A stretch of DNA of 64,000 bases from Corynebacterium liangguodongii (GTDB lineage: Bacteria > Actinomycetota > Actinomycetes > Mycobacteriales > Mycobacteriaceae), in assembly GCF_003070865.1 (NCBI RefSeq), contig NZ_CP026948.1, forward strand, positions 1,178,001 to 1,242,000. The letters are read 5' to 3'. The translations under genes were made by a program, and so were the position numbers. This document shows positions 1 through 64,000 of the stretch, one piece after another. The notes under the pieces were generated by a model, which was not told the DNA's origin, ran no database searches, and saw only the letters and a program-made list of their open reading frames with translations. Within the stretch, counting starts at the first letter, position 1; every line of letters begins with the position of its first letter.

Positions 1-459
1 CGCATCAACCGCTTTGACACCACTATCCAAGACCTCGACTGGCGCGGCGGGCGCCAAGGCGGCACGCTGCGCGCGGGACTCGGCGTCGGTGGTGTTGCGG
101 CCGGGCGCGATGGGCTCGTCCTCGCGGCGGATAACACGGGATCCCAACTCCTTGTCTATACCGCCAACGACATCATCAGGCTCCAGCAGTCGGCCCCGGT
201 CCCGCCGAGCCCGTGGGCCGTGAGCTGGGACGATGAATCTGCTCTCGCGTGGGTGGCCTCGACCGCCAGCAACGTTGCGACCGGCTACGATATTTCCACC
301 GGCGTGCCAGTGAAAAAGGCCCAGGTCAACACCATCGCCGATGCGCTCCACATGGTCACGCTTGACGACGGCACCTTGGTCATCGCATCGGCCACCGGGG
401 GCGGGATCCAGGTCGTTCCCCCGGCGCTAAAGCTTCAGGAGAAAGGACAGGCGAGCTAG
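1..459 (+). CDS. Hypothetical protein, C-terminal part only
   Basis: The frame is open from the first base, so the 5' end lies outside the window; 152 residues are visible. The visible part is rich in short Gly/Val/Ala/Thr segments alternating with charged turns, which resembles blades of a beta-propeller, but I cannot name a family. There is no membrane segment in the visible part. The TAG stop is followed directly by the ATG of pyrD without a gap, so the two are probably co-transcribed. Function unknown. Confidence 0.75.
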   Translation, partial: RINRFDTTIQDLDWRGGRQGGTLRAGLGVGGVAAGRDGLVLAADNTGSQLLVYTANDIIRLQQSAPVPPSPWAVSWDDESALAWVASTASNVATGYDISTGVPVKKAQVNTIADALHMVTLDDGTLVIASATGGGIQVVPPALKLQEKGQAS

Positions 460-1605
460 ATGGTGTCAACAACACCGAGAACTTGGGGCTCAGGATTGGG
501 TGCTGCATGCGGGGCTGTATACGACGCCGGCTACGGGCTGGCACTGAAGGCAATGTTTATGCTCCCGCCGGAGCGCATCCACCTGGTGATGAGCGCGGCG
601 CTTCGCGCGCTCCACGCCGCCCGGCCGGTCAACCGCGCGTTGCGGGCCGCGCTGCGTATCGATGACCCCGTCCTCGAGCAGACCGTCTTCGGCGTGACGT
701 TTCCCGCGCCGCTCGGCCTGGCGGCCGGGTTCGACAAAAACGCCAGCGCGGCGGATGCGTGGGGGGCGGTCGGGTTCGGCTACGCCGAGCTAGGGACGGT
801 CACGCCCAAGCCCCAGCCCGGCAACCCGCGCCCGAGGCTCTATCGCCTTCCCAAGGACAAGGCGATTCTCAACCGCATGGGGTTTAACAACGACGGCGCC
901 CTGACCGTGGCATCGCACCTGCGCGCCCGGCGCTCCGGAGACGTCGTCGGGATCAACATCGGCAAGAACAAGACGTCTGCCGATGCCGTCGCGGACTACC
1001 GCGCCTGCGCCTCCGCGCTCGGAGGGCTGGCCGACTACCTCGTGGTCAACGTCTCCTCCCCCAACACCCCGGGCCTGCGCGACCTGCAGGCGATCGAGGA
1101 GCTCCGGCCGATCCTCGAGGTGGTCACCGGGGCGACCTCAACCCCGGTGCTGGTCAAGATCGCGCCGGATCTAAGCGACGCCGACATCGACGCCGTGGCG
1201 GATCTGGCCCTCGAGCTCGGGCTGGCCGGGATCGTCGCCACGAACACGACGATTTCGCGTGACAACCTCGCCACCGACCCTGCCGAGGTCGCCGCGATGG
1301 GTTCCGGGGGGATCTCCGGCGAGCCGCTGCACCGGCGCTCGCTCGAGGTGCTGCGCCGGCTCCACGCGCGCGTCGGAGGCAAGCTCGCGCTGATCAGCGT
1401 CGGCGGGATCACCACCCCGGAGCGGGCGTGGGAGCGCATCGCGGCCGGAGCCAGCTTGCTGCAGGGATACACCCCGTTCATCTACGGCGGACCGGGCTGG
1501 ATCCGACGCATCCACGTAGGCCTCGCCGCCCAGGTCAAGGCCCACGGCTTGGGCACAATCTCCGAGGCCGTGGGCAGCGGGCTGGGGTGGGTGGAGCCGA
1601 GCTAG
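460..1605 (+). CDS. pyrD: Dihydroorotate dehydrogenase (quinone), class 2
   Basis: This protein of 381 residues oxidises dihydroorotate to orotate in pyrimidine synthesis and passes electrons to menaquinone at the membrane. Class 2 hallmarks are the extended amphipathic N-terminus (about residues 20-60, including LPPERIH), the LAAGFDKN motif (87-94), the NRMGFNN loop (about 138-144) and the catalytic-serine segment [11 protein letters not shown] (198-208). The C-terminal [17 protein letters not shown] stretch binds the FMN phosphate. The ATG abuts the upstream stop codon, and a purine-rich AGGAGAAAGGA lies upstream. Its TAG stop overlaps by 4 bp, in a shared CTAG, with the stop of the convergent gene. 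Confidence 0.97.
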
Positions 1606-2132
1606 TTCTCGTCCCACCCCCACACGATCGAGCGGCCGATCGAGTGGAAGTAGAGGTTAAAGCCGAGCACGGTCGGGTTGGTGATTTCGTCGGCGGGCAG
1701 CTCCTCGACGTCGACCGCGTGGACGGCGAAGAGGTAGCGGTGCGGGCCGTGCCCGGCGGGCGGGTTGGACCCGTAGTAGCCGGATGACCCCGAATCGCCG
1801 GGCAGCGCGACCGCGCCGACGCCGAGGCCGGGTTCGCTCGCCGCGCCGGTGGGAAGCTCGCTCACCGTAGCGGGGATGTTAAACACCGCCCAGTGCCAGT
1901 ACCCGGAGGCCGTCGGGGCGTCCGGATCGAAGCAGGTTACGGCCAGGGACTTCGTCCCCTCCGGCAGGCCCGACCAGGACAGGTGCGGCGAGGTCGCCTC
2001 GGGCCCGGTGAGCGCGTCGGCAAGCTTGGCGCCGTCCACGATGTCGGTAGAGGTCAACTCGAAGCTGGGCAGGTCCTTCAGCGGAGCGTAGGGGTCGGGA
2101 CCTGGGAAGCGGGGGTCATTGTAGGTGCTCAT
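1602..2132 (-). CDS. PEBP family (YbhB/YbcL-type) protein
   Basis: The 176-residue protein belongs to the phosphatidylethanolamine-binding/RKIP-like family. Visible signatures are the DPDAPT segment followed by GYWHW (about 69-83) and the [15 protein letters not shown] ligand-pocket block (about 118-132), ending in a short hydrophobic C-terminus. Cellular role in bacteria is not known. The frame extends 50 codons further upstream, but the MSTYND start at 2132 fits the family, and the upstream extension has low-complexity shadow character. A TAAGAC hexamer sits 7 nt before this ATG, so transcription may be leaderless. Confidence 0.88.
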
Positions 2133-2269
2133 GGTCCAAGTCTTACCAAATCCGCGTGCGACACGGCCCGAAAGCGCCGAAAGCGCCGGAAAACGAATGA
2201 CACCGATGCAACTAGCAGCCGAAAAAGGCGGCGTGACGTGCCGATTTGTGGGTTGTCGGGGGTTGGCCC

Positions 2270-2275
2270 TATAGT
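2270..2275 (+). promoter_or_regulatory. Putative -10 element upstream of tRNA-Leu
   Basis: TATAGT lies 56 bp before the mature tRNA 5' end; a TTTGTG about 19 bp upstream could serve as -35. The 2133-2331 gap holds this, the start region of the PEBP gene and a short tandem CCGAAAGCG pair near 2168-2185. Confidence 0.45.
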
Positions 2276-2331
2276 TATCCAAGTGCTTAGCGCCCAGGGC
2301 GATGGCCCCGCGGAGCTAAGAGCAACACCCG

Positions 2332-2417
2332 GCCCGGGTGGCGGAATGGCAGACGCGCTAGCTTGAGGTGCTAGTGTCCTATTAACGGACGTGGGGGTTC
2401 AAGTCCCCCCTCGGGCA
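2332..2417 (+). tRNA. tRNA-Leu (anticodon GAG)
   Basis: The 86-nt cloverleaf has a 7-bp acceptor stem GCCCGGG/CTCGGGC, discriminator A2417, anticodon stem CTAGC/GCTAG enclosing the loop TTGAGGT (anticodon GAG at 2365-2367), a long class II variable arm as expected for Leu, and a T arm GGGGGTTCAAGTCCCCC. The CCA end is not encoded (CAG follows). Confidence 0.97.
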
Positions 2418-2426
2418 CAGACCACA

Positions 2427-2453
2427 CCGGCCCCCTCGAGGGGGCCGGTTTTT
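2427..2453 (+). terminator. Rho-independent terminator after tRNA-Leu
   Basis: CCGGCCCCC and GGGGGCCGG pair in a GC-rich hairpin around a TCGA centre, followed by five T residues. It ends the tRNA transcript only 15 bp before the next start codon, so its T tract is just upstream of that gene's ribosome-binding site. Confidence 0.9.
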
Positions 2454-2468
2454 CGTTGGAGGTTCACC

Positions 2469-3154: not shown

Positions 3155-3724
3155 ATGATCGCTGTTCACGCGCGCTACCGCGGGCGGGAAAAGGCCCGGG
3201 CGCAGCTCGTAGCCCGCTCCGCCCGGGCACTTGCGACACTGCCCGACGTCGGCGAGTTCGACATTGTCGGGGTAGAAGACATCCGAGCACACGTTGATTC
3301 GCCCGACGGCGCTGTGGGCGTCATCATGGCGCTGCTCTCCGACCGCGATTGGGCGATCGGGCTCGGCATCGCCGTCGCGGGAGGGGCGAGCGCGGCGCTC
3401 GCGGAGGCCACCGCCGCCGCCGGCGCCCGGCCGGGCGAGGTCGGCGTGCGCGTCGACGGAGGTGGAGCGGAGGCGGCCGACATCGCCGCGGTCTTCGCCC
3501 TGATCGCCCACGTCCTTGAGAAGCGTTCCTTCGAGGGGCGGGAGGCCACGGGCCTGGTGCGCCGGGGGCTGAGCCAAAACGAGGCAGCAGCACAGCTCGG
3601 CATCTCCAAACAGGCGATGAGCCAGCGGCTCAAGGCGGCCGGCTGGCAGGCCGAGCAGGCCGGGATCCGGCTGGCCCTGCGCCTTATCGGCAGGGCGGCC
3701 GGGGTTGAGGCTGGGGCCGGCTAG
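3155..3724 (+). CDS. Hypothetical protein with C-terminal helix-turn-helix
   Basis: The 189-residue protein has an N-terminal region of unknown fold (about 1-115, rich in Ala and Gly) and a C-terminal HTH at about 138-161 (RGLSQNEAAAQLGISKQAMSQRL), which reads like a sigma-70 region 4 or Xre-like recognition pair and should bind DNA. No nucleotide-binding or metal motif is visible. The start at 3155 is supported by a -10 box 7 nt upstream and the absence of a ribosome-binding site. The 3' end shares a CTAG with the SPFH gene on the other strand. Likely a regulator, target unknown. Confidence 0.75.
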   Translation: MIAVHARYRGREKARAQLVARSARALATLPDVGEFDIVGVEDIRAHVDSPDGAVGVIMALLSDRDWAIGLGIAVAGGASAALAEATAAAGARPGEVGVRVDGGGAEAADIAAVFALIAHVLEKRSFEGREATGLVRRGLSQNEAAAQLGISKQAMSQRLKAAGWQAEQAGIRLALRLIGRAAGVEAGAG

Positions 3725-4935
3725 GCGTTTTCCGGATCCGGCTGCTGGTTGCCGGTGGGCAGGCCCAGGGTGCTCGAGCCGCCCGGGGAGGAGGGAAGCT
3801 CGCCGGAGCGCTCCGTCGGGGCGGGTTTCTGGGTCGGGTCGGGGGCGTCGACGTGCTTGTTCGCCACCGCGCGCGCTTCGGCGAGCGCCTTCGCCAGCTC
3901 AGGGTCGGTGGAGGTATCGAACCACTTGTCGGTGTTTTCGGCCTCCGCCATCTCCTTGGTGTCCTCGTCAACGGACTGGGACTCGTAGCGGAAGACGCCG
4001 TCATCGCCCTTGTTCGCAAACGCCTTGGCAAACTCCTCGAGCGAATCACCGAGCTGGGAGGGGATCATCCACATCGTGGCCGCCTCGCTCTGCGCGATCT
4101 GCGGCAGCTTGTCCAGGTACTGGTAGGCAAGCAGCTCCGGGGTCACGCCGGAGGACTTGATCGCGGCGTTGACCTTCTGCAGCGCACGAGCCTCGCCCTG
4201 CGCGGAGAGGTACTTCGCGGCGCGGTCGCCCTCGGCGCGCAGGATCATCGCCTGGCGCTCCGCCTCCGCGGCGAGGATGGCGGCGTGCTTCTCGCCCTCG
4301 GCGGAGAGGATGCGGGCCTGCTTCTCGCCCTCGGCGGTCTTGATGTCGGATTCGCGTTTGCCCTCGGCGGTGAGGATCATCGCGCGCTTTTCCCGGTCCG
4401 CCTTCATCTGCATCTCCATGGACTGCTGGATGGACGGCGGCGGATCAATCGCCTTGAGCTCGACGCGGCTGATGCGCAGCCCCCACTTCGCGGTCGCCGC
4501 GTCGAGCTCTCCGCGCAGGCGCCGGTTGATGGTCTCGCGGGAGGTCAGCGTTTCCTCCAGCGTCATTCCACCGACGACGTCGCGAAGCGTTGCCACGGAA
4601 ATCTGCTCGACGCCGACGAGGTAGTTGTCCACGCCGTAGATGGCGCGGGCCGGGTCGTTGATCTGGAAGGTCACCACGGTGTCGATGGCGACGGTGAGGT
4701 TGTCCTGCGTGATCACGGCCTGTGGCGGGAAGGATACGACGCGCTCGCGGGTGTCGATACGCTGCCGAACGCGGTCAATAAACGGGATGAGCAGTGTGAC
4801 TCCCCCGGTCACTGTGCGGGTGTAGCGGCCGAGGCGCTCAATGACCGCAGCCTCGCCCTGCGGGATCATCTTGATGGAACTAAAGAGGATCACCACCACG
4901 AAGACGATGATGATCAGGGGTAAGGCTAGGCCCAT
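3721..4935 (-). CDS. SPFH/band 7 (stomatin-like) membrane protein
   Basis: The 404-residue protein has an N-terminal membrane anchor (about 4-21), an SPFH/prohibitin domain (about 24-180) with the IPQGEAAVIERLGRY entry motif, then a long coiled coil. That coil holds six consecutive 11-residue repeats (187-252, consensus ILxAEGExxAx). The tail from about 320 is acidic, Pro/Ser-rich and probably disordered. Such proteins form oligomeric membrane microdomain scaffolds. The start is one base-overlapped with the stop of nfeD (TAATG), so the two are translationally coupled. An apparent longer frame through nfeD is out of frame with it and is not a fusion. Confidence 0.93.
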   Translation of the reverse strand: MGLALPLIIIVFVVVILFSSIKMIPQGEAAVIERLGRYTRTVTGGVTLLIPFIDRVRQRIDTRERVVSFPPQAVITQDNLTVAIDTVVTFQINDPARAIYGVDNYLVGVEQISVATLRDVVGGMTLEETLTSRETINRRLRGELDAATAKWGLRISRVELKAIDPPPSIQQSMEMQMKADREKRAMILTAEGKRESDIKTAEGEKQARILSAEGEKHAAILAAEAERQAMILRAEGDRAAKYLSAQGEARALQKVNAAIKSSGVTPELLAYQYLDKLPQIAQSEAATMWMIPSQLGDSLEEFAKAFANKGDDGVFRYESQSVDEDTKEMAEAENTDKWFDTSTDPELAKALAEARAVANKHVDAPDPTQKPAPTERSGELPSSPGGSSTLGLPTGNQQPDPENA

Positions 4936-17217: not shown

Positions 17218-17252
17218 GCATGCCATTCTGCCCGCCCGCAATGCCCATTAAA

Positions 17253-17268
17253 TGTGATATACATCACA
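17253..17268. promoter_or_regulatory. GlxR (cAMP-receptor-type) operator
   Basis: TGTGATATACATCACA fits the C. glutamicum GlxR consensus TGTGA-NNTANN-TCACA at every fixed position. It sits between the divergent small membrane protein (start 17217) and the HNH gene (start 17391) and could control either. Confidence 0.8.
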
Positions 17269-17390
17269 GCTCTTTTACGGCCATGTCGCCGTTATCCCAG
17301 GTCACGGCGTTTTCAGGCTGGTCCACCGCCTTCGGGGATGTCGCACACGTTTTCTATGGTGTCCTTACAGCCGACAAAAGGGGGTGCACA

Positions 17391-18800
17391 ATGGCCGCTG
17401 ATCTGGGAAAACACGTCGATACGCTCATCGCGTCTCTGCTCGCTATCCGCGACGTCTTTGCCGATCCCTCTGCGCTCAACCTCGCGGACGCGGCCGCGCA
17501 CATGGAAAAGCTCGAGGGGGCGATGGGGGCCAAAGCATTCATTGACGCCGCGTTCGCGCACCTCTGCGAGCGCGACGAGGCCGGCCGCCTCGTGGGTGCC
17601 AAGCACCCCGACGCGTATTTGCGGCAGCGCCTAGGCCTCTCGCCCCGCGAGGCTTTCGACCGCCTCGGACGCGGGCGCGATCTCTTCGGGGAGCCGCACA
17701 TCCCCGACCCGGAAGGCGAGGACTCGGGCCTTTTCGGCGACAAGGAGTCCGGACCGGAGCGGGGCGAAGAAGCTCGCCGCGAGCAGAAGCGCGCACGCTC
17801 CCGCGCCGACAAGGTGAGCGCCGAGGCCCAATCCGCGATCCGCTTCGAGCTGGACAAGCTCCTCGCCGCCGCCCGTGGGGCCCGCCCGCGTCTCCTTGCT
17901 GCCGCCCTGCGGGAGGCCGAATCGCGCACGATTAAAGACCTCAGGATGCTCGTGCGGCGCTGGGTGGATGAGGAAAACCGCAAGTACGCAGCCCCGGGCA
18001 ACCCGAATGCGGGGATGGAGCGGCGTGGAGTGCGGATTGGGCGCCGGAAGGCCGACGGCACCCACGAGATCACCGTGACCGCGACCGCGGGGGACGCTGC
18101 CCTGCTCAAGGCACTACTGGATAAGGGGGCCGCCCCGAACGCGAACCTTCCCGAGGGCATTCGCGATGACCGCACCCCCGGGCAGAGGCACTACGACCAG
18201 CTGATGAAGATGGTGCGTCATGTGGAGGCGTGCAACCGGCCCGCCGCGGGTGGCTGCGCCTCGGTCGTCGTGACGGTAACGCTCGACGATCTTGCCGGGG
18301 CCGATGCGGCCACGCTCTTTGCCACCAATACGGGTATCGAGGTCGACGCCTTTGACCTCGTGCGCCTCGGCATGGAGGGTGCCGATGATTTCGTGCTCAC
18401 CATCGACGGCGCCACCGGCGTTCCCCTCAACCTTGTGCGCAGCAGCCGAACGGCGTCCATCTGGCAGAGGGTGGCGATGCTAGCCGTCCAGGGGGTGTGC
18501 TCGTGGGCGGGGTGCACCGCACCCATGAGTGAGTGCGAGGCCCACCACATCCTCGCGTGGATCCAGGGAGGAAGCACAGACATCTCAAACCTCACGGGTC
18601 TCTGTCGCGAGCATCATAGACGCAACAATGATCACAGAGACCACCGATTCAACACCTGCCACATGGAATACGACCCGGCCAGCGGCAGAGCGGGGCTCAA
18701 GGTCCCCGGGGAGACGGCGCTGAAGTTCAACCACGCCGATGCCGCGCGCCGCTCCGCCGTCAACCGGACGGTCGCGCGCGTGCGAGGCGTCCCGCCCTAG
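17391..18800 (+). CDS. HNH endonuclease domain protein (DUF222/13E12-type)
   Basis: The 469-residue protein has an Ala/Arg-rich helical N-terminal DUF222-like part and a C-terminal HNH nuclease module: C370 and C375, the ECEAHHILAWIQGGSTDISN core with H385-H386, and C405 with H408-H409 near the end. These are the metal and zinc positions of active HNH folds. Such genes are multicopy in corynebacteria and mycobacteria and may be mobile or defence-linked; nothing mobile is next to this copy. ATG 17391 has AAAAGGGGG 6 nt upstream. The segment near 18590-18660 is less GC-rich than the surroundings. Confidence 0.9.
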   Translation: MAADLGKHVDTLIASLLAIRDVFADPSALNLADAAAHMEKLEGAMGAKAFIDAAFAHLCERDEAGRLVGAKHPDAYLRQRLGLSPREAFDRLGRGRDLFGEPHIPDPEGEDSGLFGDKESGPERGEEARREQKRARSRADKVSAEAQSAIRFELDKLLAAARGARPRLLAAALREAESRTIKDLRMLVRRWVDEENRKYAAPGNPNAGMERRGVRIGRRKADGTHEITVTATAGDAALLKALLDKGAAPNANLPEGIRDDRTPGQRHYDQLMKMVRHVEACNRPAAGGCASVVVTVTLDDLAGADAATLFATNTGIEVDAFDLVRLGMEGADDFVLTIDGATGVPLNLVRSSRTASIWQRVAMLAVQGVCSWAGCTAPMSECEAHHILAWIQGGSTDISNLTGLCREHHRRNNDHRDHRFNTCHMEYDPASGRAGLKVPGETALKFNHADAARRSAVNRTVARVRGVPP

Positions 18801-19063
18801 AGATCCTCGCCCGCCTCGAGGCGGTCCACCACACGCTTCGCGGCGGCAAGCCCGAGGCCGGTTTCCTCACGCAGCTGCTTGATCGCGGCGACCTTCTTTC
18901 CCTGCCCAAGGAGCCGGCGCACCTCGTCGGAGGCCAAGCGCCTGCGTCGCGCGTCGGCGGGCCGCCCAGCCTGGGAGGAAAGCTCGGCGACCTCGCGTTC
19001 GAGTTCGGCGACCCGAACGATGAGCTCATCAAGCGCGCCCTGGTAGCGGTTTCCGAAAAGCAT
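18797..19063 (-). CDS. Small protein with L7/L12 C-terminal-like domain
   Basis: The 88-residue protein has an N-terminal helix with heptad character (LDELIVRVAELEREVAELS) and a C-terminal LLGQGKKVAAIKQLREETGLGLAAAKRVVDRLE stretch that matches the ribosomal protein L7/L12 C-terminal domain. It is not the ribosomal protein itself. Its role is unknown; it lies right after an ABC-F gene, so a ribosome or translation-factor link is possible. The start at 19063 has TACCTT 7 nt upstream. The stop shares CTAG with the HNH gene. Confidence 0.82.
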   Translation of the reverse strand: MLFGNRYQGALDELIVRVAELEREVAELSSQAGRPADARRRRLASDEVRRLLGQGKKVAAIKQLREETGLGLAAAKRVVDRLEAGEDL

Positions 19064-21112: not shown

Positions 21113-23577
<2,465 letters not shown>

Positions 23578-24809: not shown

Positions 24810-26255
24810 TTAGCCCACGGATCCTTCCATTTGCAGTTCGATGAGACGGTTGAGCTCGAGGGCGTATTCCATCGGCAACTCCTTGGCAATCGGCTCGACG
24901 AAGCCGCGCACGATCATCGCCATCGCCTCTTCCTCGGCAATCCCGCGGGACATGAGGTAGAACAGCTGCTCCTCGGAGACCTTCGAGACCTTCGCCTCGT
25001 GGCCGAGGGTGACGTGGTCATTGCGGATGTCGTTGTACGGGTAGGTATCCGAGCGCGAGATGTTATCCACCAGCAGGGCGTCGCACTCGACGTTGGAGGC
25101 CGAGTGGTGCGCGTTCGGGTTGATCTGCACCAGCCCGCGGTAGGCGGCGCGGCCGCCGCCGCGGGCGACCGACTTCGACACGATGGTCGAGGACGTGTGC
25201 GGGGCCATGTGGGTCATCTTCGCGCCCGTGTCCTGGAACTGGCCCTCGCCGGCGAAGGCGACGGAGAGCACCTCGCCCTTGGCATACGGCCCGGTCATCC
25301 ATACGGCCGGGTACTTCATGGTCACCTTGGAGCCGATGTTGCCGTCGACCCATTCCATGGTCGCGCCCTCTTCCGCCTTGGCGCGCTTGGTCACCAGGTT
25401 GTAGACGTTGTTCGACCAGTTCTGGATCGTGGTGTAGCGGCAGCGGCCGCCCTTCTTCACAATGATCTCGACGACCGCGGAGTGCAGGGAGTCGGACTTG
25501 TAGATCGGCGCGGTGCAGCCCTCGACGTAGTGGACGTAGGCGTCCTCGTCGACGATGATGAGGGTGCGCTCGAACTGGCCCATGTTCTCCGTGTTGATGC
25601 GGAAGTAGGCCTGTAGCGGAATATCCACGTGCACGCCCTTGGGCACGTAGATGAAGGACCCGCCGGACCACACGGCCGAATTCAGCGCGGAGAACTTGTT
25701 GTCGCCGGCCGGGATGACGGTGCCGAAGTACTCCTTGAACAGATCCTCGTGCTCGCGCAGTGCGGTGTCGGTGTCGACGAAAATAACGCCCTTTTCCTCC
25801 AGGTCCTGGCGGATCTGGTGGTAGACCACCTCGGACTCGTACTGCGCCGCGACGCCGGCGACGAGGCGCTGCTTCTCGGCCTCGGGGATGCCGAGCTTGT
25901 CATAGGTGTTCTTGATGTCCTCCGGCAGGTCCTCCCAGCTGGTGGCCTGCTGCTCGGTGGAGCGCACGTAGTACTTGATGTTGTCGAAGTCGATCCCGCT
26001 CAGGTCGGCGCCCCAGGTCGGCATCGGCTTCTTCTCAAAGATGTCCAGGGCCTTGAGGCGCTGGTTGAGCATCCACTCCGGCTCGTTCTTGATACCGGAG
26101 ATGTCCTTGACCACGTCGGCATCGAGGCCGCGTCGGGCGGACGCCCCGGCGACGTCGGAGTCGTGCCACCCGTAGTTGTAGGCGCCAATAGATTCGATGA
26201 TCTCATCGTCGTTCATCGGCCTCTCGAGGCCGGGTGCGGCTTGTGTCTCAGTCAA
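24810..26255 (-). CDS. sufB: Fe-S scaffold subunit SufB
   Basis: The 481-residue scaffold protein contains the conserved [15 protein letters not shown]-terminal block, the [22 protein letters not shown] core and the C-terminal [23 protein letters not shown] block shared with SufD. Start chosen is TTG 26255 (MTETQAAPG), with AAAGGAG upstream and 8-nt overlap with the sufR stop (TTGACTGA); the first internal ATG would lose 13 residues. Confidence 0.95.
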
Positions 26256-26964
26256 GATCTCCGCTCCTTTCGGTGTGTGTCTCGCCTACCGCCCGTTTCC
26301 GGGATACGGCGGCGAGTGGAATGTTGGTCGTGCAAATGCCGTTGCCGTCCGCGATCGACGCGAGCGGCTGGACGTGTCTGCCGACGAGCGCCGAGATGGC
26401 TTCGTGTTCCGCCTCGCAGATCTCCGGGTGCTCCGCCGCCACCGCCGATACCGGGCAGTGGTGCTGGCAGATCTGGATCCCTGTGCCTGCGCGCGTCACT
26501 GTTGCAGCGTACCCGTTGGTATCGAGCGCGTCCGCCAGCTGGTGGGCCACCTGCTCGATGTCCCCGCCAGCCTTATCGACGCCTTCGACGCCGCCGAGAA
26601 TTTTCCTCGCCCGAGCGGCCGCCAGGGCCTTGACGGCTTCGGCGCCACCGATTTCCTTCAGCGCGTCGATCGCCTCCGTGGCGAGAGAGTCGTATTGGCT
26701 GCCGAAGTGGCTGCGCCCGGCCTCGGTGAGCCGGTAGTGCTTGGCGGGCCGGCCCCGCGAGGTGGTCACCCCTGCAACGCCGTGCGGCTCACAGGTCTCG
26801 GCAAGCTGTTCTTCGACCAGCTTGTCAAGGTGGCGGCGCACGCCCGCGGCGGAGAGCCCGAGCAGGCCTCCGAGCTCGGTGGCGGCGACGGGGCCGTGCT
26901 TGAGCAGGGCGGACATGACCTCCTTGCGGGTTTGTCCGCCGATAGAGCGAGCGTTGTCCTCCAT
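26248..26964 (-). CDS. sufR: SufR, Fe-S-sensing repressor of the suf operon
   Basis: The 238-residue winged-helix protein (HTH about 14-55: [24 protein letters not shown]) has four C-terminal cysteines C166, C170, C183 and C211 that match the cluster-binding region of SufR. Apo and holo forms tune suf transcription. It is the first gene of the operon. ATG 26964 was chosen because GGAGG lies 8 nt upstream; a GTG at 26973 overlaps that site. Confidence 0.95.
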
Positions 26965-31615: not shown

Positions 31616-32578
31616 ATGAAGGCGATTTTTGTCACGGAAACCGGTGGGCCCGAGGTCTTAAACGTCGTCGATCGGCCCGAGCCTCGCCCCGCGCCCGACG
31701 AGGTGCTCGTCGAGGTCGCCTACGCCGGGGTCAACTACATTGACACCTACTTCCGCTCAGGGTCCTATGCCCAGGAGCTTCCCTACATTCCCGGTTCGGA
31801 GGGCTGCGGCCGCGTGCTCGCCGACCCCGCCGGCGAGATCGCCGCGGGCACGGTCGTGGCGTGGCACGACGCCCCCGGCTCCTACGCGGAGCGGGTCTGC
31901 GTGAAGCGCAACCGTCTCGTCGCGGTGCCTGAGGGCATCGATCTGCCCGTCGCGGCCTCGATGCTTCTGCAGGGCATGACCGCCCACTACCTGCTCTTTG
32001 GCACCCGAGAGACGCGCGAGGGCGATACCTTGCTGGTCACCGCCGGGGCGGGCGGGGTCGGCCTCGTGCTCACGCAGATGGCGGTGAGCGCCGGGGCGAT
32101 TGTCTACTCGGTGACCTCGACGCCGGAGAAGGCGGCGCTCGCCGCCGAGGCGGGCGCGTCCGCTGTCTTCGGCTACGACGATTTCGCCGCCAAGGCCCGC
32201 GAGGCCACCGGCGGGCGCGGCGTCGACGCGGTGTTCGACGGCGTGGGCAAGACGACGTTTCCGCAGGCGCTTGAGGCGTGCCGCCCGCGCGGCCTGGTCT
32301 GCTCCTTCGGCTCAGCCTCGGGAGAGGTCGAGGGCTTTGCCATCCAGGAGCTCAACAAGCACGGCTCGCTCTTCCTCACCCGCCCCTCCATCGGCGCGTA
32401 CGTCGCCAGCGACGACGAGTTCCGCCTGCGCGCCCAGGCGGTGGTGCGCGCGATCGAGGAGGGCTCGTTGCGGTTGAGGATCCACGAGCCTTTCCTGCTT
32501 GACGACGCCATCGCCGCCCACACCGAACTCCAGGCGCGCCGCACCACCGGCTCGGTCGTGCTCAAGGTCGCGGGCTAG
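31616..32578 (+). CDS. qor: NADPH:quinone oxidoreductase (zeta-crystallin-like)
   Basis: The 320-residue MDR-family protein lacks zinc ligands and has the nucleotide motif [15 protein letters not shown] (about 141-155) and the quinone-reductase segment [15 protein letters not shown]. It likely reduces quinones with NADPH. The stop codon shares a CTAG with ctaB. Confidence 0.92.
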
Positions 32579-33751: not shown

Positions 33752-35911
33752 GTGACCAACTCGAACGAGGCCCCCAGCGCGGCCCCCAGCCCGGCGCAGC
33801 AGGCCACGCTGCCCGCCGAGCTTCAAGCCATGACCGTGCGCAACTACCCGGCGGACTGGACCGATGTGGATACGAGGGCCGTCGATACGGTTCGCGTGCT
33901 CGCCGCCGACGCCGTGGAGAAGTGCGGCTCCGGCCACCCCGGTACCGCCATGTCGCTCGCGCCGCTGGCCTACACGCTCTACCAGAGGGTGATGAACATC
34001 GACCCGGCCGACCCCCACTGGGTGGGGCGCGACCGCTTCGTGCTCTCCAACGGGCACTCCTCGCTCACCCAGTACATCCAGCTCTACCTCGGTGGCCTCG
34101 GCCTCGAGCTCGACGACCTCAAGTCGCTGCGCACCTGGGGCTCTAAGACCCCGGGCCACCCGGAGTACAACCACACCAAGCACGTCGAAATCACCACCGG
34201 CCCGCTCGGCCAGGGTCTTGCCTCGGCCGTCGGCATGGCCATGGCGGCGCGGCGCGAGCGCGGCCTGTTCGACCCGGACGCTCCGGCCGGGCAGTCCCCC
34301 TTCGACCACTTCATCTACGTCATCGCGGGCGACGGCTGCCTCCAGGAGGGCGTGACCGCGGAGGCGTCTTCCCTGGCGGGTACCCAGCAGCTGGGCAACC
34401 TCATCTTGTTCTGGGACGACAACCGCATCTCCATCGAAGACGACACGCGCATCGCGTTTACCGAGGACGTGATGAAGCGCTACGAGGCCTACGGCTGGCA
34501 GACGCTCACGGTGGAATCCGGCGAGGATGTCGTCGCCATCGAGGCCGCCGTGGCCGAGGCGAAGGCCGAGACGGCTCGCCCGAGCATCATCCGGGTGAAA
34601 ACCGTGATCGGCTACCCGGCCCCCAACCTGCAAAACACCGGGGCCGTCCACGGCGCCGCGCTCGGTGGAGAGGAGATCGCGCTGGTCAAGCAGGCCCTCG
34701 GGTTCGATCCTGAGGTCTCTTTCCCCGTCGAGCCCGAGGTCATCGAGCACACCCGCAAGCTCGGTGAGCGCGCCGCCGCCAAGCGGGCGGAGTGGGACAG
34801 AAGGTTTAGCGCGTGGGCCGAGGCCAACCCGGAGCGCGCCGAGCTTCTCCGCCGCCTCACCGCCCGCGAGCTGCCTGAGAACTGGAGCGCGGAGATGCCC
34901 ACCTGGGACGCCGACCCGAAGGGTGTGGCGACCCGCAAGGCGTCCGAGGCGGCGATCCAGGCCGCCGCGGCCGCGCTGCCGGAGCTTTGGGGCGGCTCGG
35001 CCGACCTCGCCGGCTCGAACAACACCTTGATCAAGGGCGCGAACTCGTTCGGCCCGAACGCGATCACGACGGGGAAGTTCACCGCCGAGCCCTACGGGCG
35101 CAACCTGCACTTCGGCATCCGCGAACACGCGATGGGCGCGATCATGAACGGCATCGCCCTGCACGGCGGCACCCGCGTCTACGGCGGCACCTTCCTCATC
35201 TTCTCGGAGTACCTCTACCCCGCGATCCGCGTCGCCGCTCTCTCCGGCATCGACGGCTACTACGTCTTCACCCACGACTCGATTGGCCTGGGCGAGGACG
35301 GCCCGACCCACCAGCCGGTGGAGACGCTCGCCGCGCTGCGCGCCATCCCCGACCTCGCGGTGATCCGCCCGGCCGACGCTAACGAGACCTCCGCCGCGTG
35401 GAAGGCCGCGCTCGAGGCCAAGGAGCAGCCGAAGGCGCTGGCCTTGACCCGCCAGAACGTCCCCGTGCTGGAAGGCACCAGGGAGAAGGCCTTCGACGGC
35501 GTGGCCCGCGGCGCCTACGTACTTGTCGAGGGCTCGAAGCCGACCCCGGATGTCATCCTCATCGGCACCGGCTCCGAGGTGCAGCTCGCGGTGGAAGCGG
35601 CGCAAACGCTCGAGGCCGAGGGCACAGCCGCCCGCGTCGTGTCCATGCCGTCGATGGAGTGGTTCCTCGAGCAGGAAGACTCCTACGTCGAATCCGTTGT
35701 GCCGCGCGCGGTGGAGGCACGCGTGAGCGTCGAGGCGGGCATCGCCATGCCCTGGTACCGCTTCCTCGGCGCCCACGGCCGCGCCGTCTCGCTCGAGCAC
35801 TTCGGCGCCTCCGCCCCCGGCGCCGAGCTCTTCGAGCGCTTCGGCATCACCGCCGAGGCGGTCGCCGAGGCCGCGCGCGCATCCATCGCCAGCGCACGCA
35901 CGAGCAACTAG
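33752..35911 (+). CDS. tkt: Transketolase
   Basis: The 719-residue TPP enzyme moves two-carbon units in the pentose phosphate pathway. Visible motifs: [13 protein letters not shown] (59-71), the TPP motif [13 protein letters not shown] ending in the DDN after about 30 residues, and [15 protein letters not shown] in the pyrimidine domain. Start GTG with GAGGA 5 nt upstream. The N-terminus is about 20 residues longer than in many homologues. First gene of tkt-tal-zwf-opcA-pgl. Confidence 0.97.
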
Positions 35912-52071: not shown

Positions 52072-53045
52072 TCCTTCTCCATTTCGATGAGCACGTCTTC
52101 TCCTAAGGTCGCGGTGTCAACGAGCTGGTAGCGCGGCGCCGCAGACAGGCTCGGCGCCAGGGCGCGCGCAAGCACCCCCGTACCGCCGCCGAGCAGCAGC
52201 GGCGCGAGGTAAGCCTGGACACGATCGACAACGCCGAGCTCGATGAAGCTCGCCGCCAGGCTGGCCCCGCCCTCGACGAGGACGTCGCGCGCACCTGTGT
52301 CCCACAGCGCCTCGAGCGCCTCCTCAGGAGTGCCGTAGCGCTCGTAGCCAAGCCGCGAGAGGTTCCCCGCGGGCACGTCCCGCGTGCCGACGACCACCCG
52401 CCGCGGCTGGTGTCGCCGCAGCGTCCCGTCCGGCAGGCGGGCCGTGAGCGAGGGGTTATCCGCGATGGCGGTGCCGGTGCCGATCACGATGGCATCGCGC
52501 GCGGCGCGGTCCGCGTGGACGTGCTCGCGGGCGGCCGGGCCGGTGATCCACTGGCTGGTGCCGTCCGGGGCGGCGGTGAAGCCGTCGATACTCGCGGCGA
52601 ACTTCACCGTCACCGAGACCCGGCCGTGGCGCACCGAGCTCAGCCACGGGTCGAGCGCCTTGACCCGGCGGGGCGCGAAGGTCGCCTCGATGCCGCGTGA
52701 GCGCAGGTAATCGGCACCCCCGGCGGCCAGCGGGTTGGGGTCTTCGGTGAGGTAGATCACTTCGACTACCCCCGCCTCCGCGAGCGCCTCTGCGCACGGC
52801 CCGGTGCGGCCGGTGTGGTTGCACGGCTCGAGAGTGACCACCGCGATCGCCCCGCGCGCCGCGGACCCGGCCCGCCGAAGGGCGTTGACCTCCGCGTGGG
52901 GGCCTCCCGCGGGCGAGGTCGCCCCGGTGGCAATGAGCGCACCGTCGGGCCGGTAGAGCGCGCAGCCAACGGGCGGGTTCGGCGAGGTCGTCCCCCGCAC
53001 CGACTCCCCCGCCCGCAGCGCCGGGCCGACGTCTGGCTGCCTCAC
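52056..53045 (-). CDS. ribD: Riboflavin deaminase/reductase RibD
   Basis: The 329-residue bifunctional protein has an N-terminal zinc deaminase (H50 and E52 in PHAEV; C75 and C84 in LEPCNHTGRTGPC) and a C-terminal reductase (VTVKFAASIDGF, VEGGASLAASF). GTG start overlaps the rpe stop as GTGA. Confidence 0.96.
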   Translation of the reverse strand: MRQPDVGPALRAGESVRGTTSPNPPVGCALYRPDGALIATGATSPAGGPHAEVNALRRAGSAARGAIAVVTLEPCNHTGRTGPCAEALAEAGVVEVIYLTEDPNPLAAGGADYLRSRGIEATFAPRRVKALDPWLSSVRHGRVSVTVKFAASIDGFTAAPDGTSQWITGPAAREHVHADRAARDAIVIGTGTAIADNPSLTARLPDGTLRRHQPRRVVVGTRDVPAGNLSRLGYERYGTPEEALEALWDTGARDVLVEGGASLAASFIELGVVDRVQAYLAPLLLGGGTGVLARALAPSLSAAPRYQLVDTATLGEDVLIEMEKECLQG

Positions 53046-53716
53046 CGGGCCGCCGGGCCCGCCTGCGCCGCGCGGGCCAGCTCCCGGAGCTTATCCACCG
53101 CCGCGGCGGGGTCATCCGACCCGAACACCGCGGAGCCGGCGACGAAGGATTCGACCCCGGCGGCGGCCGCCTGCGCGATGGTGGACGCGGCGATGCCCCC
53201 ATCGATGGCGATGATCGTGCCCAGCCCCGCATCGGCGATGTGGGCGCGCAGTGCCTCCGCCTTGGCTAAGACCTCTGGCATGAATTTCTGCCCGCCGAAT
53301 CCCGGCTCGACGCTCATAATCATGACTTCTTCGACGAGCTCGACGTGCTCGAGGTAGGGCTCGATCGGGGTGCCGGGTTTGACCGCGAAGCCGGCCTGCG
53401 CCCCGGCCTCGTGGGCGCTCCGCGCCGCCGCGGAGACGTCGCGGACAGCCTCGACGTGGAAGATGAGCCGGTCCCCACCCGCGGCGACGTAGGTGTCAAA
53501 CCAGCGCTCCGGCTGCTCGATCATCAAATGCATATCGAGGAACTGCTCGGTGACCCCGTCCACAGCCCGGGTGAGGTCCGGGCCGAAGGAGAGGTTGGGC
53601 ACGAAATGCCCGTCCATGATGTCGACGTGGAGTAGGTCGGCGTTGGCCACCTTGCGCACGTCCTGCCCGAGCGCCGCGTAATCCGCGGCGAGGATTGAGG
53701 GGGCGATGTAGAGCAT
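53042..53716 (-). CDS. rpe: Ribulose-phosphate 3-epimerase
   Basis: The 224-residue TIM barrel has SILAADYAALGQ, the metal-site segments VDIMDGHFVPNLSFGP and HLMIEQP, and a C-terminal IDGGIAAST. It links ribulose-5-P to xylulose-5-P and supplies substrate near the riboflavin genes. TAGGCT lies 7 nt before the ATG. Confidence 0.97.
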   Translation of the reverse strand: MLYIAPSILAADYAALGQDVRKVANADLLHVDIMDGHFVPNLSFGPDLTRAVDGVTEQFLDMHLMIEQPERWFDTYVAAGGDRLIFHVEAVRDVSAAARSAHEAGAQAGFAVKPGTPIEPYLEHVELVEEVMIMSVEPGFGGQKFMPEVLAKAEALRAHIADAGLGTIIAIDGGIAASTIAQAAAAGVESFVAGSAVFGSDDPAAAVDKLRELARAAQAGPAAR

Positions 53717-53740: not shown

Positions 53741-55168
53741 CTACTTCTTGCGCAGCACGCTGAAAAACATCGCGTCGGTGCCGTGGCGGTGCGGCCACAT
53801 CTGCACGCTCTTGCCCTCCCCGGCGTCCTCGAGGCCCGGCACGTAGGGGTGGGCATCGAGCTCTTCGACACCGCCCGCCGCCACAGCGGCCTCGACTACC
53901 CCCCTAGTCTCCCGCAGGTCCGGCGAGCAGGTGGAGTAGACCACCACGCCGCCCGGTCTGACCAGGCGAATCGCCGAGGCGAGCAGCTCACCTTGGAGGT
54001 CGGTGAGTGATGCTATGTCCGCCTCCGATTTCACCCACCGCGCCTCGGGGCGGCGGCGCAGGGCGCCGAGGCCGGAACAGGGGGCGTCGACAAGCACGCG
54101 GTCGAAGCCCGGATCGAGCCCAGGGTCGCGGCCGTCGCCGACGGTGACCCGCACGGGTAGCTCGCCGACGGCCTTGCGGACAAGCTCGGCGCGGTGTTCG
54201 CTGACCTCCACGGCGTCGACGCGGGCGCCCTCGATGCCCGCGATTGCCCCGAGCAACGCGGCCTTGCCGCCCGGCCCGGCGCACAGGTCGAGCCAGCGCC
54301 CCGCATCGTCCTCGACCTCAACCTCGGCAACGGCGCGCGCAATGAGCTGAGAGCCTTCGTCCTGCACCCCAGCCAGGCCGCTGCGCACCGGCTCGAGGCT
54401 ACCCGGGTCGCCCTCTGGCAGGTAGACCGCGTACGGGGAGTACTTCCCCTCTTCTCCCCCGGTGATCGCGGCGAGCTCGGCCGCCGAGATCTCCCCGGGG
54501 CGGGCGACGAGGTGGACGACCGGGCGCTGCGAGTCGGCCTCGAGCGCGCGTTCAAGCTCCGCCGCCCGGTCCGGCCCGAGCGCGGTGGAAAACGAGCGCG
54601 CGATCCACTCGGGGTGCGCGGTGCGAAACGCCACGGCGCCGAGCTCGTCTGCCGGCGCGAGCTCATGGATCCAGCGCGGCGCGGGCGTGCGGGAGACGCT
54701 GCGCAGCACGGCGTTGGCAAACCCCTTAGCCTTCACTACCCCGGCGGCCTCGACGAGGCGCACGGACGTATCGACGGCCGCGTGGGCGTCAACTCGCATA
54801 TAGAGCAACTGGTAGGTGCCCAGGCGCAGTGCGGCGAGAACCTCGGGGGCGATCTCGCCCAGCGGGCGCGAGGAGCAGCGCTCAATCACCGCGTCGATCA
54901 CGCCTTGGGTGCGCAGGGTGCCGTAGGCGAGCTCGGTGGCAAACGCCGCGTCGCGCCCGCTGATGCGGCGAGAGCGCAGCAGCTTGGGCAGCACGAGGTT
55001 GGCAAAGGCCTCGTCGGTGGCCACGCGCAACACGACGTCGAAGGCCGCCTCTCGCGCCGCGTCGCCGATCGACCCGACCTCGGCCGCCCGGGGCTGCCCG
55101 CTCTGGGGTGCCGCCTCGGCCTTCTGGCTGCGGCGCCCCGCGGCGCGCGACCTAAACCCTCCGCTCAC
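53741..55168 (-). CDS. rsmB: 16S rRNA m5C967 methyltransferase RsmB/Fmu-type
   Basis: The 475-residue protein has a basic N-terminus, a NusB-like RNA-binding domain (about 38-165) and a Rossmann methyltransferase with LDLCAGPGGKA, Cys364 (VDAPCSGLG) and Cys414 (YSTCS), the two cysteines of m5C enzymes. GTG start overlaps the fmt stop as GTGA. Confidence 0.95.
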   Translation of the reverse strand: MSGGFRSRAAGRRSQKAEAAPQSGQPRAAEVGSIGDAAREAAFDVVLRVATDEAFANLVLPKLLRSRRISGRDAAFATELAYGTLRTQGVIDAVIERCSSRPLGEIAPEVLAALRLGTYQLLYMRVDAHAAVDTSVRLVEAAGVVKAKGFANAVLRSVSRTPAPRWIHELAPADELGAVAFRTAHPEWIARSFSTALGPDRAAELERALEADSQRPVVHLVARPGEISAAELAAITGGEEGKYSPYAVYLPEGDPGSLEPVRSGLAGVQDEGSQLIARAVAEVEVEDDAGRWLDLCAGPGGKAALLGAIAGIEGARVDAVEVSEHRAELVRKAVGELPVRVTVGDGRDPGLDPGFDRVLVDAPCSGLGALRRRPEARWVKSEADIASLTDLQGELLASAIRLVRPGGVVVYSTCSPDLRETRGVVEAAVAAGGVEELDAHPYVPGLEDAGEGKSVQMWPHRHGTDAMFFSVLRKK

Positions 55169-56100
55169 TCGAACACCAGCTCCTTTCCGTTGCCGTTAGC
55201 GCCGTGGATCCCGCGCGCCCAGTCGGGCGCGGGCATCATCTTCTTGCCTGGCGGCTGGATCGTCCCAAGGCGCACGGCACCGCCGCGCGTGCCGACGACC
55301 ACCTCGCCCTTCCCCACGCTGACCTGCCCGGGTGAAAGCCCTGCCCGCTCGCAAGGCTCCACGGGCCCGAGCTTGATGCGCTCGCCGCAAAGAGTCGTCC
55401 ACGCGCCGGGCGCCGGGGTGTGGGCACGGATCTGGCGGTCGATCGCCGCCGCCTCGGACTCCCAGCTCACCCGCGCGTCCGCGCTCGTGATCTTGCCCGC
55501 GTACGTCCCCTCCGGCGGCTGGGCGACGGGGGTAGACTCCCCGCGCTCGAGGCCCGTCATCGTCTCCACGAGCAACTCGGCCCCGGACGTAGCGAGGCGG
55601 GTGAGCAGGTCGTCGGCGGTATCGCGCGGCCGGATCTCCGCGTGGATGTGGCCGAGGATCGGGCCGGTGTCGAGCCCCTCATCGATGCGAAACGTCGTCG
55701 CCCCGGTATCGACGTCCCCGGCGGCGATCGCGGCCTGCACTGGGGCGGCGCCGCGCCAGCGCGGCAGGAGGGAGAAATGCAGGTTTATCCAGCCGTGTTC
55801 CGGGATGTCGAGCATATCCGCGGGGATGAGGTTGCCGTAGGCGACGACGGGGATCGCCTGCGGGGAGATCTCGCGCAGCGCGGCGCGGATCTCCCCGTTT
55901 TCTTTCAGCGTGGTCGGGGTATAGACCTCGATGCCGCTGTTCAGCGCGACCTCCTTGACCGGCGAGGGGTGCAGGCTGCGGCCGCGGCCCTTGCGCGCGT
56001 CGGGCCTGGTGATGACGGCTTCCACGACGTGCTCCGAGGCGATGAGGCGCTCGAGAGCGACCGCGGCGGGCTCGGGTGTTCCGGCGAAGACGAGGCGCAT
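55165..56100 (-). CDS. fmt: Methionyl-tRNA formyltransferase
   Basis: The 311-residue enzyme has the N-terminal FAGTPEPAAVAL, the active-site INLHFSLLPRWRGAAPVQ and RIDEGLDTGP, and the C-terminal OB-like tRNA-binding domain. It formylates initiator tRNA. It begins one base after def. Confidence 0.97.
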   Translation of the reverse strand: MRLVFAGTPEPAAVALERLIASEHVVEAVITRPDARKGRGRSLHPSPVKEVALNSGIEVYTPTTLKENGEIRAALREISPQAIPVVAYGNLIPADMLDIPEHGWINLHFSLLPRWRGAAPVQAAIAAGDVDTGATTFRIDEGLDTGPILGHIHAEIRPRDTADDLLTRLATSGAELLVETMTGLERGESTPVAQPPEGTYAGKITSADARVSWESEAAAIDRQIRAHTPAPGAWTTLCGERIKLGPVEPCERAGLSPGQVSVGKGEVVVGTRGGAVRLGTIQPPGKKMMPAPDWARGIHGANGNGKELVFE

Positions 56101-56101
56101 G

Positions 56102-61158: not shown

Positions 61159-61166
61159 AGTGACGC

Positions 61167-61296: not shown

Positions 61297-61314
61297 CGTG
61301 CCGGTGAGGGGGCT

Positions 61315-61641: not shown

Positions 61642-61649
61642 AATTGAAC

Positions 61650-62240: not shown

Positions 62241-62244
62241 CGGT

Positions 62245-62565
62245 TTAGCCCTCGAAGCCGAAGCGCTCCAGCAGGGCGCGGCGCTGGCGCTCACCCAGGC
62301 CACGGAGGCGGCGGGTCTGAGCGATCTCGAGCTCCTCCATGATCTCGCGGGCCTTGACCTTGCCCACCTTCGGCATTGCCTCGAGCAATGCGGATACCTT
62401 GGTCTTGCCGATGATCTCGTCGGACTCGGCTTTGTCGAGGACGTCCTTCAAGGTGGTGTCGCCGCGCTTGAGCGACGCCTTCAGCTCGGCGCGCTGCTTG
62501 CGGGCCTCGGCTGCCTTTGCGAGTGCTTCCTTGCGCTGCTCGTCGGTCAACTGTGGAAGGGCCAC
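62245..62565 (-). CDS. mihF: Integration host factor, actinobacterial type
   Basis: The 106-residue DNA-binding protein matches mIHF: Ala/Lys-rich N-terminal helix, then [53 protein letters not shown] with the helix-two-turn-helix. It bends DNA and shapes the nucleoid. GTG start with GGAGG 5 nt upstream. The longer frame to 62739 is not used. Confidence 0.96.
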
Positions 62566-62671
62566 GGATTCCTCCAAATTGTCGTAGTTAAGGTTTTCAG
62601 CCAGGTGCCACACCCGGACCGGTTGTGAGGCGGGCGGAAATCCCACCGATGCAACTCGCTGGTTCCGGCCA

Positions 62672-62677
62672 AGTGTA
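62672..62677 (-). promoter_or_regulatory. Putative -10 element of mihF
   Basis: TACACT on the minus strand about 107 bp upstream of the GTG, in the 246-bp gap after pyrF. I saw no clear terminator in that gap. Confidence 0.5.
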
Positions 62678-62811
62678 GCACCCTCAGTGATGATCGTCGG
62701 CGAACGCGGCAACGTTTCCCAAGGAAGCCGTTTTACCACGTCACCGCGATGACGCCCTCAAATTACCAGGCTTTTTGCGTTTCCACGAATAAGGGGCCGC
62801 ATAACCGCCGC

Positions 62812-63606
62812 TTAGGCGAAGGATTCGAGGCGTTTGTGCAGCTCAGCAACGTCGGGCCCGGCGGAGAGGACAGAGCGCGAGACGTTGGGGAAGGCAAGCT
62901 CTGCACGCTCGCCGACGATGCGCGAGACATCCTCAAGCGTCGCCCCCTGCGCCCCGACACCGGGCATGAGCACCGGCGCGTTGAGCGCGCCAAGGCGCGG
63001 CGGCTCGGCAACGGTCGCCCCCACCACCACCCCGACATCGCCCACGCCGGGGCCGGGATTGTAGGCCGCGCACGCATCGACCATCTGCTGGGCGATGCTC
63101 ACCCCGTCAACTAGCTGGGACTGGAAGGCCTCCGCTTCCGGGTTGGAGTTCGCCGCCATGACGAAGACCCCCTTGCCGTGCTCCCCCGCCAGCTCGATGG
63201 CCGGGTCGAGCGAACCGACCCCGAGGTAGGGCGTGAGCGTGACCGCGTCGGCCTCCAAGGGCGAACCCGGGGCGAGCCACGCGGCGGCGTAGCCTTTCAT
63301 GGTCGAGCCGATGTCGCCGCGCTTCGCGTCGGCCACGACCAGCGTTCCGGCCTCCCGCAGCGCCGCCAGGGTCTCTTCCAGGACCGCGTAGCCGACCGAG
63401 CCGAAGCGCTCGTAGAACGCGACCTGGGGCTTGACCAGGGCTACCCGCCCCGCAAAGGCCTCGACGCAGGTGCGGGAGAACTCGCGCAAGCCGTCTGCGT
63501 CATCGCCCAGCCCCCACGCCTCGAGCAGGGCGGGGTGCGGGTCGATGCCGACGCAGAGGCGGCCGAGGCGCGCCCCGGCGTCAACAAGCGCCTGCCCGAA
63601 TCCCAT
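62812..63606 (-). CDS. pyrF: Orotidine 5'-phosphate decarboxylase, type 2
   Basis: The 264-residue TIM barrel has VGIDPHPALL (19-28) and the catalytic DAKRGDIGSTMKGYA (93-107, D93/K95/D98). It makes UMP. ATG directly follows the carB stop, so it is co-translated with carB. Confidence 0.97.
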   Translation of the reverse strand: MGFGQALVDAGARLGRLCVGIDPHPALLEAWGLGDDADGLREFSRTCVEAFAGRVALVKPQVAFYERFGSVGYAVLEETLAALREAGTLVVADAKRGDIGSTMKGYAAAWLAPGSPLEADAVTLTPYLGVGSLDPAIELAGEHGKGVFVMAANSNPEAEAFQSQLVDGVSIAQQMVDACAAYNPGPGVGDVGVVVGATVAEPPRLGALNAPVLMPGVGAQGATLEDVSRIVGERAELAFPNVSRSVLSAGPDVAELHKRLESFA

Positions 63607-64000
63607 CTAGCGCTCCCCCGATCCGGTGTGCTCGAGCTCCTGCAGGCTCATCACGCCCAGCTCGCTCTCGCGCAGCGCCTCGATGCCCTGCACGGCGGCG
63701 ACGACGCCCTGCACGGTGGTCACCAACGGCACCCCGGCCGCCGCCGCGGTCGCGCGGATCTCGTAGCCGTCGAAGCGGGCACCCGCGGAGCCCGCCGGGG
63801 TGTTGAGGATGAGGTCGACCTCGCCTGCCCCGATGCGCTCGACGATGGAGGTCCCCTCGGCGCCATCGCGCACCTCGGAGGCCTTGAGCGCAAGCTCGCA
63901 CTCGATGCCGTTGCGGCGCAGCATCGACGCCGTACCCGTGGTGGCGAGGATGGTAAAGCCCATGGTGGCCAGGCGCTGGATCGGGAAGATCAGGGAGCGC
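63607..64000 (-). CDS. carB: Carbamoyl-phosphate synthase large chain, C-terminal end
   Basis: The visible 130 residues form the MGS-like allosteric domain: [30 protein letters not shown] and [10 protein letters not shown]. The frame runs out of the window, so the 5' part is missing; an internal ATG at 63963 is not the start. Confidence 0.95.

Follow-up and report, generated by a model that had tools for sequence, protein, structure and literature searches.

Stop codons in the window and in its genome

The window, that is, the whole stretch of 64,000 nucleotides analysed here (positions 1..64000, no strand; G000:C1:1178001-1242000), belongs to the genome of Corynebacterium liangguodongii, a single contig of 2,357,924 bp, and its 64 called genes are considered for the stop codons with which they end. 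Its guanine-plus-cytosine (GC) content is 0.67-0.70 in 8-kb steps. When its training set is 464 kb of the contig (about 20%), made up of the window and 20 further 20-kb stretches, an open reading frame (ORF) caller assigns TAG to 45 of these genes, TAA to 12 and TGA to 7, which reproduces exactly the count of a first-pass annotation made from the letters of the window; the same caller trained on the window alone returns 60 genes, with TAG 43, TAA 11 and TGA 6. All genome-wide figures below refer to that sample of about 20%, and all genes come from our own ORF caller and not from the annotation.

TAG, ordinarily the rarest stop in bacteria, is also the majority stop in the sample, which holds 417 genes ending with TAA (95), TAG (233) or TGA (89), or 23, 56 and 21%. 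This share lies above the 25% at or below which the first-pass annotation would have given up its claim of a lineage-specific shift, and TGA is not the majority stop that is the ordinary trait of high-GC actinomycetes. Outside the window, in 400 kb, TAG ends 188 of 353 genes (53%; Fisher p = 0.013 for window versus outside); TAG is thus more frequent inside the window than elsewhere in the sample, and the window overstates the bias. Among the 303 non-overlapping genes of the sample, TAA, TAG and TGA number 77, 190 and 36 (25, 63 and 12%).

Gene overlap accounts for much of the remaining TGA. In the sample, 47 of the 64 stops in same-strand overlaps are TGA, and so are all 35 of those in 4-nt overlaps, where the geometry imposes it. 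Examples in the window, all on the minus strand, are the 4-nt overlaps at 22819..22822 (gene 22819-23577), 53042..53045 (gene 53042-53716) and 55165..55168 (gene 55165-56100), together with an 8-nt overlap carrying a TGA stop at 26248..26255 (gene 26248-26916). The first-pass annotation had attributed six of seven TGA stops to overlaps; most do overlap, the number in same-strand overlaps being four of six in the window-trained gene set. Separately, 4-nt overlaps make up 73 of 1377 same-strand gene pairs in the genus, 35 of 269 in the sample and 41 of 182 in other Actinomycetota, and their lower number in the genus is perhaps another trace of TGA avoidance. Overlaps of 1 nt end with TAA 36, TAG 4 and TGA 13 times in Corynebacterium and 1, 0 and 10 times in other Actinomycetota.

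Base composition does not explain these stops. In 63.7 kb of noncoding DNA from the sample, read on both strands, the triplets TAA, TAG and TGA occur 645, 1040 and 1515 times, and the non-overlapping stops depart from these proportions with a chi-square p of 3e-34. Stops that mirrored the DNA would be TGA most often; TGA is in fact the commonest of the three noncoding triplets and yet the rarest non-overlapping stop. By simple arithmetic on the counts, the preference for TAG at stops relative to noncoding DNA is about 7.7-fold (ln +2.04) when TGA is the comparison and 1.5-fold (ln +0.43) when it is TAA. The expectation that stop proportions follow noncoding k-mers thus fails in this genome, and the lineage-specific shift claimed earlier is borne out, with an excess of TAG over TGA such as selection on termination would give.

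TGA avoidance across Corynebacterium

The gene tkt for transketolase (33752..35911, plus strand), itself ending with TAG, served as the query that fetched homologous loci from named relatives; by this protein the nearest are C. lipophiloflavum and C. senegalense (87% identity in the best segment). To the tkt loci were added loci centred on prfB, most of them 20 kb long, from 97 Corynebacterium genomes and three others, some species being present in both sets. The 78 tkt loci comprise 39 from Corynebacterium and 12 from other Actinomycetota, which were pooled, and 27 from other phyla or from contigs of metagenome-assembled genomes (MAGs), which were not; four unpooled MAG loci of Actinomycetota type (L048-L051) have TAA/TAG/TGA counts of 5/4/6, 6/6/6, 2/2/10 and 2/9/9. 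Only 74 of the 417 genes of the sample have a homologue in the fetched loci, with stops of 13/46/15.

The Corynebacterium loci span 46 to 70% GC. When 127 of them are divided into seven GC bins, from below 0.53 to above 0.67, the ln TAG/TGA at stops relative to noncoding DNA is +2.00, +1.88, +2.13, +2.13, +1.29, +1.62 and +1.43 (standard errors 0.17-0.36), and the ln TAG/TAA lies between -0.36 and +0.22. In the 12 loci of other Actinomycetota the ln TAG/TGA is -0.19 ± 0.23, and TGA ends 0.84 of all genes. Loci around prfA give the same contrast, non-overlapping TGA stops numbering 56 of 74 in other genera and outgroups and 8 of 35 in Corynebacterium. When an orthologue in one of 15 loci from other Actinomycetota has a TGA stop, its counterpart in this genome has TAG in 45 of 46 pairwise comparisons; the comparisons are non-independent, because the same few genes of this genome recur in them. 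The first-pass annotation would also have withdrawn its claim had ordinary corynebacteria the same ratio, and in part they do, with low TGA and with TAG at 37-46% of all genes when pooled by GC.

TGA avoidance is therefore genus-wide, is partly undone in some high-GC lineages and persists in this genome at a GC content of about 68%. It apparently extends to the small-genome genus (g4) that is placed as sister to Corynebacterium in a quick tree of release factor 1 (RF1), with a support of 91 in the Shimodaira-Hasegawa-like approximate likelihood ratio test. In one genome of this sister genus (G279), 30 non-overlapping genes have stops of 16/13/1 against noncoding triplets of 79/88/110; a third genus sampled (G282) has stops of 2/4/6.

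The two remaining stops are nearly interchangeable in Corynebacterium. Across 55 disjoint pairs of relatives, orthologues switched between TAA and TAG 144 times, between TAA and TGA 26 times and between TAG and TGA 23 times, and the conservation of TAA, TAG and TGA in those pairs was 0.65, 0.67 and 0.53. Highly expressed genes follow the usual rule of UAA preference: 18 recognised genes for ribosomal proteins and elongation factors, used in place of a count of 39 ORFs in the ribosomal protein region that includes doubtful ones, end with TAA 14 times, TAG three times and TGA once. Because these genes use TAA, TAG is not the best stop, just the GC-rich alternative to TAA that is left once TGA is disfavoured. 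The shift is accordingly better described as genus-wide avoidance of TGA than, as first proposed, as a preference for TAG in the lineage of this genome. TGA is concentrated in the quartile of genes with the poorest codon adaptation, where it ends 17 of 69, versus 18 of 209 in the other quartiles (p = 0.0013); horizontally acquired genes could contribute to this.

The context of the stops differs as well. A T immediately after the stop codon (position +4) follows 0.28 of TGA stops and 0.12 of TAG stops in Corynebacterium (p = 1e-7), a contrast absent from the TGA-rich relatives (0.18 and 0.21, respectively), and +4T has been reported to lower readthrough (PMC5289835). In non-overlapping genes of Corynebacterium, T is depleted after TAA (0.13) and TAG (0.12) relative to noncoding DNA (0.21 and 0.23), whereas TGA shows no such depletion.

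Release factors and competing explanations

These observations are quite probably explained by UGA being a costly stop in Corynebacterium and, it seems, in the sister genus, with RF1 handling most termination and GC pressure turning TAA into TAG. Except where an overlap between genes imposes it, UGA would be under negative selection, while UAA and UAG, both read by RF1, are nearly interchangeable, with UAA retained in ribosomal genes. In a genome of about 68% GC, the pressure that raises TGA elsewhere would be mostly limited to the change from TAA to TAG, and TAG would become the majority stop. The cost of UGA would lie in poor or slow termination, and the most likely physiological cause is that release factor 2 (RF2) is limiting relative to RF1. 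The balance between RF1 and RF2 proposed by the first-pass annotation is thus plausible and unproven.

Several results weigh against this explanation. The effect on TGA is weaker above 63% GC, and a high-GC clade of the C. glyciniphilum type, which includes C. kalidii and is nested in the genus, is rich in TGA (ln +0.54 ± 0.23); the group consists of nine loci, L257 being assigned to it by TGA use alone, while L214, L224, L245, L252 and L256, likewise high in GC and with elevated TGA, were kept in the TGA-low pool. In the RF2 alignment, the TGA-rich clade agrees with the rest of Corynebacterium at the columns that set the genus apart from outgroups, so that RF2 sequence does not discriminate and no RF2 change found marks the avoidance; this comparison rests on five outgroup rows out of seven, L118 and L136 having been read in the wrong frame. 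The contrast in +4T reflects mostly the depletion of T after TAA and TAG, the gain after TGA being non-significant (p = 0.15). In this genome, the 1-nt overlaps show no avoidance of TGA (TAA 7, TAG 1, TGA 8). Finally, corynephages are mixed, with non-overlapping TGA stops of 4/33 in phi673, 4/38 in P1201 and 14/44 in BFK20, beside 17/27, 12/27 and 8/30 in phages of other hosts not matched for GC; alternative and pseudogene rows were dropped from these counts, as was the end-cut gene of phi673 and that of P1201. As a separate observation, TAG triplets outnumber TGA triplets across the whole sequence of BFK20 (L295).

Both release factor genes, which the first-pass annotation had singled out for inspection, are present and open in this genome: prfA at G000:C1:930353-931402 (L278) and prfB at G000:C1:638298-639338 (L001/L146). 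The prfB frameshift site that it had also named is absent, the gene being in a single frame, and this is not special, since the same is reported for all 2,658 Actinomycetota surveyed (PMC12421855); frameshifting is thereby dismissed as a factor. RF2 has intact GGQ and SPF motifs, prfB lies above the family cut-off in 236 of 242 genomes of the genus (the other six give weaker matches only), and no internal stop occurs among the prfB matches listed. Two genomes stand out: G118 has two full-length prfB matches (C1:41144-42184 and 2239670-2240710), and G196, rated 100% complete, has one weaker match and none over the cut-off.

In favour of a limiting RF2, codon adaptation, a proxy for abundance only, is higher for RF1 in this genome (0.626, 86th percentile) than for RF2 (0.536, 61st percentile). 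Pointing the same way, a GGAG-type sequence precedes the start of RF1, and prfB has a predicted leaderless promoter: a TANNNT box ends 7-8 nt before the in-frame start in 99 of 99 genes. These were located by script in 99 of 101 loci (that of this genome and L161-L260), including TGA-rich lineages and outgroups (Nocardia and Prauserella). Over all called genes such a box is found in 352 of 2093, and 18 have one at a control distance. Being present in TGA-rich and outgroup lineages too, the leaderless arrangement is excluded as the cause of the avoidance; judged from the promoter pattern, it might stand in for the frameshift control that Actinomycetota lack. Release factor 3 likewise does not separate TGA-poor from TGA-rich genomes, prfC lying above the family cut-off in 119 of 121 genomes of the genus, including the TGA-rich G066, G084 and G163, and the other two genomes being incomplete.

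A different starting point is offered by RF1. The residue that corresponds to His197 of Escherichia coli and His193 of Thermus thermophilus, a His highly conserved among bacterial release factors, is Gln in Corynebacterium. This His makes a stacking contact with the second stop-codon base (PMC3974865, PMC5681627), and its replacement in His197Ala is reported to slow release 5-fold (PMC3974865). The codon pattern for Gln was matched in 236 of 242 genomes of the genus and that for His in none of the 242; among the six without a match, Gln was found in all three that were read. In other genera of the family, the pattern was matched in 123 of 185 genomes (62 without a match), 120 having His by row count, and the true prfA of the three apparent exceptions has His. 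Where prfA of other genera was read directly, His was found in 26 of 26 (one of 30 loci unread). Actinobacterial RF2 has Gln at the same position in 153 of 156 segments read, some genomes being represented twice. The quick tree of RF1 places a single origin of Gln on the Corynebacterium stem (support of the group 100).

A change from His to Gln in the ancestor of Corynebacterium might have made RF1 the better factor and driven genes from TGA to TAG, as would suit a Gln at the decoding site that is near-universal in the genus, of single origin and matched by His in other genera. However, the sister genus already avoids TGA with His in its RF1, and the TGA-rich C. glyciniphilum-type clade retains Gln. 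As a trigger the substitution is contradicted by both, and this gain of function is unlikely; from the sequences, the change looks neither needed nor sufficient. Since the sister genus with His avoids TGA and the TGA-rich clade has Gln, the RF1 change probably came after the shift in stop usage. This order is consistent with RF1 having been tuned to a larger load, and so with the direction of causation for which Ho and Hurst argue (PMC8789281); noncoding k-mers, which they propose as the cause, nevertheless leave the avoidance of TGA here unexplained. A fuller sequence of events can be put forward tentatively, at less than even chances: UGA was demoted before Corynebacterium and its sister genus diverged, and a retooling centred on RF1 followed, in which His was replaced by the Gln already present in actinobacterial RF2. 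If so, nature would here offer a lineage whose stop usage shifted before its release factor adapted, and with it a direct test of the causal direction.

The avoidance might also be history without present selection, an ancestor of lower GC having lost TGA and the later rise in GC not having refilled it, as the higher TGA in several high-GC lineages would allow. This is disfavoured and rather improbable: TAA becomes either TGA or TAG by a single A-to-G change, and noncoding DNA favours TGA, yet the switches number 26 against 144.

Slightly less probable still is a leaky UGA read by tRNA-Trp, either through a 4-bp anticodon stem or through changes of the G24A or A9C type. In 13 of 19 orders, a tRNA-Trp with a 4-bp stem is accompanied by reduced use of UGA (PMC13092985), and this genome has a second, divergent tRNA-Trp. 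However, both of its tRNA-Trp have 5-bp anticodon stems in the ARAGORN drawings; G24 is present in all 150 matches listed, the 5′ half of the core gene being found in 240 of 242 genomes of the genus; and position 9, within that 5′ half, to which the genus-wide reading was confined, is A or G and by eye does not track TGA use. The tRNA-Trp variants are thus not supported. The second tRNA-Trp(CCA), on the minus strand at L262:1488-1561, near G000:C1:2140782, is divergent and low in GC, adjoins a tRNA-Gln(TTG) and may derive from a mobile element.

Mutation or k-mer bias, including the mutation at CTAG suggested by the first-pass annotation, is very improbable as what makes TAG common, and for this genome it is refuted. 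In its favour, the palindrome CTAG forms both stops in 15 of the 65 convergent gene pairs of the sample. CTAG is nevertheless under-represented in the window (126 on both strands against 183.6 expected, a ratio of 0.69), which rules it out as the cause, and noncoding TAG is rarer than TGA; base -1 is C similarly before TAG (108 of 190) and TAA (41 of 77). In the window, such joint CTAG stops lie at 1602..1605 (genes 460-1605, plus, and 1602-2132, minus), 3721..3724 (3155-3724, plus, and 3721-4935, minus), 18797..18800 (17241-18800, plus, and 18797-19063, minus) and 32575..32578 (31616-32578, plus, and 32575-33486, minus); the arrangement recurs in 28 of 339 convergent pairs in other Corynebacterium loci and in 2 of 43 in other Actinomycetota.

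Ongoing reassignment of TGA to sense, as its scarcity as a stop might suggest, is disfavoured and barely conceivable, because RF2, whose loss marks UGA reassignment of the code 4 type, is present with its motifs intact and TGA still ends most same-strand overlapping genes.

Comparison with known systems

No study of stop usage in Corynebacterium turned up in a literature search, whose reach did not include the older subscription-journal papers on corynebacterial codon usage, and the main text of the stop-usage papers, where the name was looked for, makes no mention of the genus. Actinobacteria are listed as UGA-dominant (PMC6006363). The genus departs from published rules by which TAG is universally suboptimal at about 20% and noncoding triplets suffice, and so provides a natural exception. 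Cause and effect between stop usage and release factors become testable there, because the genus includes the tractable C. glutamicum as well as TGA-rich lineages, and a decoding residue of its RF1 has undergone a fixed change. If UGA is indeed costly, UAA or UAG would be safer than UGA in corynebacterial expression constructs.

The closest parallels share some features with the present case and differ in others. In the account of Ho and Hurst (PMC8789281, PMC9348620), TAG stays at about 20% and flat with GC, triplets of the 3′ untranslated region follow the stops, and release factors are argued to be unneeded. Their "TAG paradox" likewise sets TAG against TGA as GC changes, whereas in this genome the stops differ from the noncoding triplets about 7-fold and TAG makes up 56-63%. 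Povolotskaya 2012 (PMC3549826) similarly weighed stop frequencies against base composition and reported TAG as suboptimal in all bacteria; in Corynebacterium it is TGA that is disfavoured, with TAG about equal to TAA. The preference for UAA and avoidance of UGA in highly expressed genes agree with Wei 2016 (PMC4989110), where low RF2 is expected to select against UGA; there, however, RF2 is relatively high at high GC, and here a GC-rich actinomycete avoids UGA. As in PMC12421855, prfB lacks the frameshift site, but its loss is tied there to high demand for TGA, and Corynebacterium combines the absence of the site with low demand. Lower use of UGA is shared with the system of tRNA-Trp with a 4-bp stem (PMC13092985), from which the two 5-bp stems of this genome differ. 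The stop-codon bias in this genome is the usual one with loser and winner exchanged.

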